From Thalassobaculaceae bacterium (GTDB lineage: Bacteria > Pseudomonadota > Alphaproteobacteria > Thalassobaculales > Thalassobaculaceae), in assembly GCA_029212785.1 (NCBI GenBank), contig JARGOG010000013.1, positions 1 through 64,000 of the forward strand: a DNA stretch of 64,000 bases. The letters are read 5' to 3'. The position numbers and the translations under genes are program-made. Each line of letters starts with the position of its first letter. Position 1 is the stretch's first letter. This document shows positions 55,221-60,244 of this stretch, one piece after another. Below the pieces are notes generated by a model. That model saw nothing but the letters and a program-made list of their open reading frames with translations, searched no databases and was not told the DNA's origin.

Positions 55221-56483
55221 TCAGCCGGCGTCCGTCTTGCGCTCGGCCACCGTCTCGACCCAGCGGTCGTCGAACACCATTTCCCGAACGATCTTGAATT
55301 GATCATTGAAGCTGTAGCGGCTGGCCGGAATGTGCACGGTCTTGTCGCCGGGGGAAATGACTTCCCGGTTCAGATGGTAGAGCTTCCGGGCTTGGAAATG
55401 GCGCATGACGTCGCCGTAGAAGCGATGGTTGCGGGCGTCCATGTGCTGGAAACTCATCGAATTGAACACGACCGAGGCCCGCCCCTTGAACTCGCCCAGA
55501 CGCCACGGCGGGATGACGATGACGCGACAGCCCTCGGGCGGTCGGATCGGTCCCTCGAAAGCGCCGTAGACCTGCTCTCCGAAATGCGATCGCAGATAGG
55601 CATAGGTCAGGATCAGATTCACGGGTAGATCAGTCAGCATATAGACCACATCCGGTCGGATCCGCAGCAGCCGCGATGCGGCAGCACCGAAGCCGCCGCC
55701 GACCTCCAGGACAGATCCGTTCTCCGGCACGAGCCCGCTGAGGCGGCAGGCATAGTAGGTCGACTGCAGACTCTTGGCGGTGACGGTGCCGATACCCGGG
55801 ATATCGAAGACGCGGGCACCGAACCGGTCGTCGTCCAGGATCAAGGCATCCGCTACGTTCAGCGTCCGGCTCAGGGGAGTGTTCTTCGGGTCTTCCGCCA
55901 CGGCCTTGTGCAGGCGGCGGAACAGACCGCCTCGGGTCGTCGAGAGAATTGGCCGCCACACCTTAAGATCGGCCTCGGTGACGTCCGGGTAGAAGGTCGA
56001 GAAATCCAGCCGTGCGAAATCTATCGGACAGTCAGGGACGGTTTGCGTGCCGCTGGAAACCTCCGATCGACGAAAGTTGGCCAGGTGTTCGACCGTCAGA
56101 GGGATGGAGAACTTCGATACCTCGATCGACGACGGCGTCCAGGCTTCGGTGCGCCGTCGGTTCGTCTCCTCGAGCAGGCGATGATAGACGTCGACCAGTG
56201 GCGGAAGGTCGACGTCGAACCGTTTCGCCGGCGGCACCGCTTCGGGTGCGCGCGGGATCCAGTTGGGAATACTGGATGCACGGTCCAGGACGTTGAGGCA
56301 CGACAAGGCGTTGGCAAGCCCCCTGGGGTCGTTGGGCGCGAGGATATGTCGGCGAAGCCCCTGACGCGCGGCGGCCAAACGATCACCGTTCCACCAGGAT
56401 TGCAGAAGGGATTCGTAGGCCGCCGGGTTCGCGGGGTCCCGCATTGCCTGCATCCGGACAGCCGAAGTTGGCTCCATGTCCAT
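55221..56483 (-). CDS. putative sugar O-methyltransferase
   Basis: About 420 residues. The C-terminal half (from about residue 240) contains the SAM motif SVLEVGGGFGAAASRLLRIR and RPDVVYMLTDLPVNLILTYA; the protein resembles the 'putative sugar O-methyltransferase' family found beside surface polysaccharide genes. The N-terminal half is less typical and of unknown function. A GTG at 56534 is also open, but the ATG at 56483 has TTGGAG upstream and was preferred. There are no polysaccharide genes beside it here. Confidence 0.82.
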   Translation of the reverse strand: MDMEPTSAVRMQAMRDPANPAAYESLLQSWWNGDRLAAARQGLRRHILAPNDPRGLANALSCLNVLDRASSIPNWIPRAPEAVPPAKRFDVDLPPLVDVYHRLLEETNRRRTEAWTPSSIEVSKFSIPLTVEHLANFRRSEVSSGTQTVPDCPIDFARLDFSTFYPDVTEADLKVWRPILSTTRGGLFRRLHKAVAEDPKNTPLSRTLNVADALILDDDRFGARVFDIPGIGTVTAKSLQSTYYACRLSGLVPENGSVLEVGGGFGAAASRLLRIRPDVVYMLTDLPVNLILTYAYLRSHFGEQVYGAFEGPIRPPEGCRVIVIPPWRLGEFKGRASVVFNSMSFQHMDARNHRFYGDVMRHFQARKLYHLNREVISPGDKTVHIPASRYSFNDQFKIVREMVFDDRWVETVAERKTDAG

Positions 56484-56614
56484 GCGCTCCAATCTCCGGC
56501 ACCAAGCATCCCTAACGACATCGTTTGTTGGCACGAGTCGCCTATCGATGTCACGGGAACTCGGCTTATCCTCACGGAAAACGACGTCAACAAAGCGAGT
56601 GGGAGGACTGTGAG

Positions 56615-57635: not shown

Positions 57636-58820
57636 TTACGCTGCCTGGGTGCCCCCCCGGGCCAGGGCCTTGGCGGGGTCGACGAACGGCACGGCGACGA
57701 CCATCGCCGCGCGGGGGCCGAGCGGCGTGTCGACGATGACGCCGGTGCCGAGCGCAGCATCGCCGATCGGGGCATAGCCGAGGCCGATGTTGCGGTGCAG
57801 GCGCGGCGAGTAGATGGCGCTGGTCACCACGCCGTCGTTGCCCTCGCCGCCGAAGCGGGCGTTCCAGTGCTGCAGGTTGGCGGGGATCGGATCGCCGAGG
57901 ATCTCGATCCCGACCAGCTTGCGGGTGACGCCGCGCGCGGCGATGAGCCTTAGGGCGTCCTTGCCGACATAGTCCGCCTCGATGTCGAGGGAGACGAGAC
58001 GGTCCAGTCCAAGCTCGAACGGGTTGTTCTCCGCCGTCATGTCAGCGCCATAGGACAGCAGCCCGGCCTCGATCCGCCGGATGGCGTTGGGGCCGGACGG
58101 CGCCACGCCGAGGTCGGATCCAAGTTCGAACAACCGCTCCCACAACGCGTCGCCGTAGCGGCCGTCGCGCAGGAAAATCTCGTAGCCGAATTCGCCCGAC
58201 CATCCGGTGCGGGCCACCACGACGGGGGCACCATCCAGTTCCGTTTCGACAAACCGGAAATATTTCAGCGTGTCGATCCAGTCGCCGAACACCCGCTTCA
58301 TCAGCGTGCCGGCCTTCGGTCCCTGGATCTGCAGCGGCGAGACGTCGGGCTCGGTCACGGTGACGTCCCAGGAACCGGCGCGAGCCAAGGCCTTGGCCCA
58401 GAGCAGCAGATCGCCATCGGCCAGTGACAGCCAATACCGGTCCTCGGCCAGCTTCAGCAGCACCGGATCGCTCAGCACGCCGCCGTCATGGTCGCAGAGC
58501 AACACGTACTTCGCCTGTCCGATCTGCATCTTCGAAAGATCGCGGGGCGTCAGGTACTGAGTGAAAGCCGCGGCCTCCGGGCCGGTGATCTCGACCTGAC
58601 GCTCGCCGGCAACGTCCCAGACCGTGACATCCTGGACCAGCGACCAGTAGTCGGCCTCGCCGCGGTACGAAACCGGCATGTACATGTGGTTGTAGATCGT
58701 GAACGCACGCGCCCCCCAGCGTCGGGTGGCGGCGTAGTAGGGGGAGGTGCGCACGCGTGGCCCGAAGACGAGGGTGGGGGCGGCGGCATCGGCGTCAAGC
58801 GTGTCGGCCAGGGTGATCAT
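57636..58820 (-). CDS. DmdA-related GcvT-fold protein
   Basis: 394-residue aminomethyltransferase-type (GcvT fold) protein. Many blocks match DMSP demethylase Dmd[84 protein letters not shown] and the [14 protein letters not shown] end. The SGYSKQGG block of proven DmdA is changed to [10 protein letters not shown], so the activity may differ; other GcvT-fold demethylases (LigM, DMGDH tail, sarcosine-type) are possible. Two starts are supported: ATG 58820 with GAGGAG at 9 bases (used here) and ATG 59069 with GAGGAG at 6 bases, which adds 83 residues in frame. See findings. Confidence 0.82.
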
Positions 58821-59338
58821 GGGGTCAATCTCCTCACCTTCAGTCGCCGGCTTTCCAACCGACTCTGCTTTGTCCATCCGCCCTTCTTTTAGGAATACTG
58901 AGTGATCTGTCTGTTCCGGACGCGACTGCCCGTTCGGATATGAATAACTATGGGTAAATTGTTTTGAATCCGACAGAAATTCAGAATCTAATTCATTCCC
59001 GACATGTAGTATGTCGTGAATATCTGTGTTGTGTCGAATTTCGAATATTTGATTGTTCCAGTCCGACATTTGTAGCTCCTCTGTCATCACGTCGAGGGGC
59101 CGGTCGGTGCCGAAGCGCTTTAGCTTTTGTTGACCCGGAGCAAGCTGCCCCTCAAATCACCGGGGGTCCGTCAGGGGGACCAGGCCAGAAACCAACAATA
59201 TGGACGGATAAAAAAATCCGCCCAGGAAAGCCATGCGACCGGGCGGATTCATCGATCCGTTTAGCCGCATTTGTTAAGCGCCCGCAAGCAGGATGCAAAT
59301 CGGCGCTGGCTTGAAAATGCGACGGAGCCGCCGTCCGG
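58821..59338. other. AT-rich region upstream of the DmdA-related gene
   Basis: 518 bases. From 58821 to 59069 the reading frame of the downstream gene stays open for 83 codons on the minus strand, with an SD and start at 59069 and another candidate (AGAAGGG then ATG) at 58878. This stretch is clearly AT-richer than its surroundings. Then, to 59338, come the terminator of the EamA gene and spacer. No other gene is seen. Confidence 0.6.
59208..59249 (-). terminator. strong intrinsic terminator after the EamA gene
   Basis: On the minus strand: AATCCGCCC (59241-59249) pairs with GGGCGGATT (59215-59223), 17-base loop, followed by TTTTTTTATCC. It ends the transcript of the EamA gene before the DmdA-related gene. 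Confidence 0.88.
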
Positions 59339-60244
59339 TCAAGCAGATTTCGCCCGGCGCCTGACCACGGTTTCGCGGTGCCAGATATACAGGCCGCTGG
59401 CGACCACCAACGCGGCACCGGCAAAGGTCCAGGTCCCCGGCACATCGCCCCACACCAGCATGCCCAGCAGGATCGCCCAGAGCAGGCAGGTGTATTTGAA
59501 CGGCCCGACGAGGCCGACCTCGCCGAACCTCAGGCTTTCGATCATCAGGCCTTGAGCGACGGCGACGAGGGTGGCGGTGACGACGAAGAGCAGGGCATCG
59601 GCCGCGGTCAACGCCACCCAGCCGAAGGGCAAGGTGAGCAGCCCGGCGAAGGAGAGGATCCCGGTCGACAGGATCAGCATCATCAGCGTCGATTCCCCGC
59701 CGGTGCCCATCTTGCGCGTGACGATATCGCGCATCGCACCGACGAAGGCGGCGACGATCGGAATCAGGGCGACGATCCGGAACATCTCCGGCGTCGGACG
59801 GACCATGACGACGACGCCGGCGAAACCGACGGCGACGGCACTCCAGCGCCGCCAGCCCACCGGCTCCGCCAGCAACAGGGCGGCAAGCGCGGTACCGAAG
59901 ATCGGGCCGGCGAAGGAGATCGCGATGGCGTCGGCGATCGGCAGCAGCCAGAGCGAGGTGACGAACAGGAATGTCGAGACCGACATCAGCCCGCCGCGTG
60001 CCAGCTGCAACGGCCAGCTGCGCACCTTCAGCACCGAGAGCCGGCCGGACGCGGCCGCCCAGCCATAGACCAGAATCACCACCAGCCCGCCGCGGATCGC
60101 CAGGACCTGGCCGATCGGGTAGCGCTCGGTCAACCATTTGGCGATAGCGTCGTTGACCGTGAGGATCGCGGCCGCGGCGACCATCATCAGGATGGCCTTG
60201 GCGGGCGCGGAGGAACCGGAGGTGGGCAGGGCGGAAGCAACCAT
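59339..60244 (-). CDS. EamA family (DMT superfamily) transporter
   Basis: 301-residue inner-membrane protein with about ten TM segments and two EamA repeats (first from LMMVAAAAILTVNDAIAKWL, second from VGAMRDIVTRKMGTGGESTL). The family exports amino acids, metabolites or drugs; the substrate is unknown. Residue 1 at 60244; the protein ends shortly before a strong terminator. It diverges from the ABC-F gene. Confidence 0.93.
   Translation of the reverse strand: MVASALPTSGSSAPAKAILMMVAAAAILTVNDAIAKWLTERYPIGQVLAIRGGLVVILVYGWAAASGRLSVLKVRSWPLQLARGGLMSVSTFLFVTSLWLLPIADAIAISFAGPIFGTALAALLLAEPVGWRRWSAVAVGFAGVVVMVRPTPEMFRIVALIPIVAAFVGAMRDIVTRKMGTGGESTLMMLILSTGILSFAGLLTLPFGWVALTAADALLFVVTATLVAVAQGLMIESLRFGEVGLVGPFKYTCLLWAILLGMLVWGDVPGTWTFAGAALVVASGLYIWHRETVVRRRAKSA

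Follow-up and report, generated by a model that had tools for sequence, protein, structure and literature searches.

SAM-II-like tandem aptamers upstream of a DmdA-like gene with an AT-rich N-terminal extension in a Thalassobaculaceae genome

The 64,000-nucleotide stretch of Thalassobaculaceae DNA analysed here (the window) carries a gene for a DmdA-like protein that can be read from either of two starts, and the question it raises is what to make of the AT-rich DNA between them. The long start, ATG 59069, has the motif GAGGAG 6 nt on its 5' side; the short, family-like start, ATG 58820, lies exactly 83 codons further 3'. Both points had been made in the initial annotation and are confirmed by the sequence (coordinates are collected in Table 1). 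The extension has a GC content of 44.6%, falling to 40% in its first 60 codons, in a part of the window where the flanking genes mostly have 60-75%. Its GC3 is 0.45, compared with 0.88 in the core, and it does not show the codon bias of the genome. An open frame in such DNA had been considered unexpected. The segment is indeed AT-rich and open, but this is only mildly unlikely: the frame stays open in 2.9% of dinucleotide-preserving shuffles (P about 0.03), and with a chance of about 3% the open frame by itself is weak evidence. The frame also continues above ATG 59069 to approximately position 59159, which means little because the DNA there belongs to a conserved second aptamer. Another ORF of the window, of 437 codons on the minus strand (55221-56534), has no Pfam match.

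Table 1. Features of the locus and related leaders of the same genome.
Feature	Position	Strand	Evidence or remark
Promoter TTGACC (59342-59337), 17 nt, CATTTT (59319-59314)	59314..59342	-	conserved in four genomes
Aptamer 1, SAM-II (RF00521)	59240..59316	-	35.1 bits, E 1.4e-6
Putative antiterminator hairpin CGGAT/ATCCG	59259-59244	-	terminator left arm with 3' strand of aptamer 1
Intrinsic terminator AATCCGCCC...GGGCGGATT + T run	59210..59249	-	hairpin folds in four genomes
Aptamer 2, SAM-II-like	59099..59173	-	23.7 bits, RF00521; P1 CCCGG/CCGGG
Shine-Dalgarno GAGGAG, long start	59076..59081	-	direct sequence
Whole long ORF	57636..59069	-	477 aa, 477 codons without a stop
AT-rich N-terminal extension, 83 codons	58821..59069	-	open; ungapped homologue in L048
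Shine-Dalgarno GAGGAG, before short start ATG 58820	58830..58835	-	direct sequence
DmdA-like core, GcvT fold	57636..58820	-	PF01571, PF08669
GCV_T domain	about 58736-57999	-	PF01571, 9e-50, 169.7 bits, above Pfam gathering
GCV_T_C domain	about 57923-57678	-	PF08669, 5e-12, 46.1 bits, above Pfam gathering
SAM-II leader L084	G000:C13:1-55		before metY
SAM-II-like leader L086	C24:15041-15115		before cysG
SAM-II-like leader L087	C116:15812-15886		before cysH

Within the order, close orthologues are present in four genomes only: that of the window, bin.58 (G004/L048), which is a sister species, Thalassobaculum litoreum DSM 18839 (G002/L049), and bin.41 (G010/L082). In the window and its three relatives the gene is preceded by tandem matches to the SAM-II model RF00521, a feature absent from the initial annotation. 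The strong ribosome site at ATG 59069 is explained by these aptamers, which sit just upstream. Conservation is much stronger in the leader, from promoter to second aptamer, than in the extension. Its promoter contains CTTGAC in all four genomes, with CATTTT or CACTTT as the -10 element, and promoters of this kind stand a few nucleotides before P1 of SAM-II (Corbino et al., PMC1273637). The proposal that the AT-rich segment came with a promoter of its own is not supported, as the conserved promoter lies upstream of the segment (59342-59314) and before aptamer 1 in four of four genomes. The single promoter-like site inside the segment has 9 of 12 matches, where chance alone would give 0.4 such sites, and was rejected because bin.58 does not retain it.

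Aptamer 1 scores slightly below the gathering score of RF00521, which is 36 bits, whereas its orthologue in bin.41 is above it (39.1 bits). The presence of both a promoter upstream and a terminator downstream matches the known SAM-II arrangement (PMC1273637). The arms of the terminator differ among the four genomes, yet they still pair. Together with the alternative hairpin formed by its left arm (Table 1), this pairing pattern suggests a terminator/antiterminator switch.

Aptamer 2 ends approximately 12 nt before the Shine-Dalgarno sequence of ATG 59069. It is below the RF00521 gathering score in all four genomes (22.4-23.9 bits), and is more than 97% conserved in bin.58 and T. litoreum. It resembles the leaders of cysG and cysH in its own genome, a type characterised by an inserted hairpin before the 3' strand of the pseudoknot and by scores below the Rfam cut-off. 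When aptamer 2 is compared with these leaders, P1 shows covariation in the form of one C-G to G-C double change, and 100% of the P1 alignment cells are paired (slid controls, 20-50%). A SAM-V aptamer was considered and rejected, as there is no match to RF01826 even in a 281-nt search. The probable pseudoknot of aptamer 2 is GAGGGGC/GCCCCTC. Its 3' strand (59101-59094) is complementary to the Shine-Dalgarno sequence, likewise in the three relatives, and an anti-Shine-Dalgarno hairpin folds in all four genomes when pseudoknots are left out of the folding. Taken at face value, the pseudoknot-free fold, in which the 3' strand pairs with the Shine-Dalgarno sequence, would mask the ribosome site in the absence of SAM and expose it on SAM binding, so that aptamer 2 might act in the reverse sense to aptamer 1. 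The loop sequence GAGGGG of aptamer 2 itself resembles a Shine-Dalgarno sequence. Both aptamers are predicted to bind SAM.

The other SAM-II leaders of the genome precede metY, cysG and cysH (names from inspection of the translations), and the gene therefore belongs to a SAM/sulphur regulon. Related genomes also hold RF00521 matches of these kinds.

The enzyme core was described initially as resembling DMSP demethylase but lacking the SGYSKQGG block, and so it does: where Pelagibacter ubique DmdA has RSGWSKQGG, the window protein has RTGWSGEFG, and no SG[WY]SKQGG is present. SKQGG also occurs in some tree rows outside the DmdA clade. The best structure match is P. ubique DmdA (3tfh), with a TM score of 0.92 by target and 38% sequence identity. 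The DmdA model NF009133 gives 388.6 bits, below its curated cut-off of 410. The initial annotation had made the kinship depend on a place with DmdA in a tree; in a tree of 61 rows, 3tfh falls within a clade of 25 rows (SH-aLRT support, 100), and the clade of the window protein (support, 98) lies outside it. The outgroup is distant and on a long branch, so that the root and deep order of this tree are unsure. The groups around the window clade mostly carry RTGWS[GS]E, among them HTCC2080 (L061) and the loci L134 and L135; the latter two are probable homologues of SAR11_1265 with RTGWSSELGYE, and L134 shares 51% identity with the window protein. Besides the fold, DmdA (P. ubique, 3tfh, NF009133) and the window protein have in common TIYNHM at the start of the core, the DMSP-contact tryptophan described as DMSP-specific (W171 in the numbering of PMC7487153; window W290) and the folate-site glutamate (Glu297), the latter two being invariant in the alignment. 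The window gene differs in TGWSGE, in a phenylalanine in place of the DmdA tyrosine two residues after the folate-site glutamate, in the SAM aptamers upstream, in the 83-residue tail and in its position outside the DmdA clade. Given the results for cut-off, clade and motif, we do not claim that the protein is a DmdA. The best functional guess is a DmdA-like methyl transfer to tetrahydrofolate (THF).

The neighbours of related genes bear on this guess. RTGWSGE-type homologues in gammaproteobacterial and unassigned proteobacterial genomes adjoin metH and metA (L057), metY (L064), metA and metY (L081) or an MTHFR-like gene (L058). These are four of approximately 15 loci examined, and they belong to another subclade, about 50% identical to the window protein. 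In addition, SAR11_1265, a dmdA-like aminomethyltransferase gene, adjoins metF (PMC3160333). SAM control in Thalassobaculum and the neighbouring genes elsewhere are two independent lines pointing to a role in methionine supply. The idea that the window genome lacks metF was rejected: metF is present, and the enzyme is therefore not the sole source of 5-methyl-THF. In three loci of the RTGWSSE type (L135, L136 and L138) the DmdA-like gene adjoins enoyl-CoA hydratase-like genes, and AMP-binding acyl-CoA ligase-like genes (assigned by inspection only) are found near it in L135 and L138. Such neighbours would suit an onium carboxylate handled by CoA steps.

We now return to the extension. It is found in the window and bin.58 only, being absent from T. 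litoreum and bin.41, and the gene tree fits either loss in T. litoreum or gain in the window species and bin.58. By the initial annotation, a frame closed in relatives would have spoken against its reading. In bin.58 the segment occupies the identical site, in frame and ungapped, and is exactly 83 codons long; its open frame has a shuffle P of 0.08. The two segments are 51% identical in nucleotide sequence, compared with 27% ± 2.7 for shuffled sequences and 24-30% for shifted registers. By codon position, the extension shows identities of 0.54/0.58/0.57 and the core 0.86/0.91/0.52. Thus, the residues of the extension drift at about the silent-site rate, and there is no purifying selection on them. 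When noncoding drift of equal depth is simulated, the frame stays open in 0.2-1.7% of runs; with indels, the frame is both open and exactly 249 nt long in 0-0.075% of runs. We read this as selection to keep the frame, without selection on the residues. A frame and length that are kept while the residues drift fit a translated, unconstrained N-terminal tail. AlphaFold2 gives pLDDT values of 27-39 over the extension. Disorder would produce such values, but so would a region for which hardly any sequences can be aligned; we predict a disordered tail. The statement that this segment is unlike any DmdA holds more widely: there is no match in Pfam or NCBIfam and no credible match (and no donor) among plasmids and phages; among 98 related genomes the protein search finds only its own genome, the remainder having E above 0.05. 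As DNA, it is a single copy in its own genome. Probably, the extension is translated as a passenger tail free of constraint; we do not see it as a domain acquired together with a promoter.

The position of the long start is informative in this respect. Its GAGGAG is identical in bin.58, and a GGAG-type site is found at the equivalent position in T. litoreum and bin.41. In these two species, which lack the extension, the start follows directly after aptamer 2, at about the same distance as ATG 59069. It follows that ATG 59069 occupies the place beside the riboswitch where the ancestral start stood. The longer product, put forward initially as a possibility, is likely on the strength of the frame, exact length and long-start Shine-Dalgarno sequence kept in bin.58.

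Our preferred explanation, held as a whole with moderate confidence, is a SAM-governed, folate-dependent methyltransferase beside true DmdA, with an 83-residue tail forced upon it by the riboswitch. We infer the direction of each switch, the use of each start and the enzymatic reaction as follows. The gene product would belong to the DmdA/GcvT superfamily, in a lineage that neighbours true DmdA without being part of it, and would act as a folate-dependent methyltransferase. A small methylated compound (a sulphonium or quaternary-ammonium osmolyte) would most likely donate a methyl group to THF; the resulting 5-methyl-THF would feed methionine and SAM synthesis. The RNA would start at aptamer 1, whose SAM-bound form would favour the terminator, a step suggested by the pairing pattern. 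At low SAM, transcription would pass this first terminator and the long start would be translated. At high SAM there would be termination, and aptamer 2, from its place just before the Shine-Dalgarno sequence of ATG 59069, would add a further block to translation or adjust it. In two species, that of the window and one sister, a 249-nt AT-rich piece would have come to lie between the riboswitch-coupled start and the core. As the start must stay beside the switch, ribosomes would read through this piece and add the tail. The ribosome site at the old start of the core (58820) may also give a short product.

This last point can be enlarged into a different account, in which the gene has two regular products: initiation at 59069 would give a long form under SAM control, and initiation at 58820 a short form with leakier expression. 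Both pairs of Shine-Dalgarno sequence and ATG are kept in the window and bin.58, the AGGAG of the short start at an unchanged spacing of 9 nt, and an AGGAG 5-16 nt before an ATG is expected by chance at about 1% of the ATGs in the window. A second, short product is therefore possible, and its ribosome site would allow translation to skip aptamer 2. However, a second start that escapes control would weaken the second switch, and AGGAG could persist by chance in Glu-Glu or Lys-Glu codons. We regard regular use of both starts as possible but doubtful.

We think it unlikely that the AT-rich DNA is a spacer left untranslated, with ATG 58820 as the start in use and the terminator of aptamer 1 as the only regulator. 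The conserved GAGGAG at 58835 would serve such a start, the N termini would then match those of T. litoreum and bin.41 in length, and the absence of residue conservation and the foreign GC3 would be natural in a spacer. Against this, an open frame of equal length in two species at 51% identity is improbable for noncoding DNA, GAGGAG and ATG of the long start stand in both species where T. litoreum and bin.41 begin their proteins, and the conserved translational aptamer 2 would be left without a target.

The reading given initially, a DMSP demethylase with a foreign N-terminal segment that brought its own promoter, appears improbable. It draws on the closest solved structure being DmdA, on the retained DMSP-contact tryptophan and on the AT content of the segment, but the protein scores under the NF009133 cut-off and has its place outside the fully supported DmdA clade, the only relative of the segment is that in bin.58, and the segment is preceded by the conserved promoter and aptamers, whereas its own promoter-like site is not conserved. 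Finally, an assembly artefact or a frame-neutral chance insertion without biological meaning, for which one might cite the roughly 3% chance of an open frame in the window alone, is very improbable because an independent genome, that of bin.58, contains a homologous piece of equal place and length.

Returning to the SAM-governed methyltransferase with its forced tail, its parts are of known kinds, and for their combination we found no published report. Nor did we find a published link between SAM-II and a DmdA-type gene, in a literature search that excludes most subscription journals. In P. ubique, SAM riboswitches are found on bhmT, mmuM, metY and metX, and the level of DmdA protein is constant under sulphur limitation (PMC5069961). 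One of the closest parallels is P. ubique bhmT, where a SAM-II/SAM-V element combines a terminator switch and then a translational switch (PMC11508383, PMC5069961). The order of switches would be the same as here, again before a methyl-transfer gene feeding methionine; in contrast, aptamer 2 of the window is a weak SAM-II match and does not match the SAM-V model. Tandem SAM-II riboswitches with mixed platforms have also been described, the first with a terminator and the second at the ribosome site (PMC9481103). The window sequence suggests the same order, but the target is a DmdA-like gene, and aptamer 2 has an insert before the 3' strand of the pseudoknot and is below the Rfam cut-off. On the protein side, the uncharacterised aminomethyltransferase of the SAR11_1265 type (PMC3160333) is likewise DmdA-like but distinct. 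It belongs to another subclade and has no N-terminal extension, and no SAM aptamer was found near its probable homologues.

SAM-riboswitch control of a DmdA-sister enzyme, as the leader suggests it, is a more interesting fact than the extension. Tentatively, we propose that the DmdA-sister enzyme, including the relatives next to methionine genes and the SAR11 core gene SAR11_1265, serves methyl salvage for methionine: on SAM shortage, an osmolyte methyl group would yield 5-methyl-THF, bypassing MetF, and in Thalassobaculum this would be controlled by a pair of SAM sensors in series, each with its own mechanism. An orphan DmdA/GcvT branch, with members in the abundant SAR11 bacteria, would thereby become a testable part of methionine metabolism. 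As for the extension, ribosomes seem obliged to translate an inserted piece because their start is coupled to a riboswitch, which gives a disordered tail with almost no selection on its residues.

Some minor observations concern the group as a whole. T. salexigens is a reported DMSP producer (PMC5395565); a search for dsyB, as a sign of own DMSP production, gave Methyltransf_2 matches that were not resolved to DsyB. Two single-contig genomes of 1.5 Mb (G001 and G005) are filed under one genus with Thalassobaculum-like genomes of 5 Mb and possibly represent reduced symbionts. In bin.41 the tandem leader and the gene are found together (L082:2805-4236) behind an upstream gene that differs from the one seen in T. 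litoreum and the window, and the leader and DmdA-like gene look like a unit that moves together.
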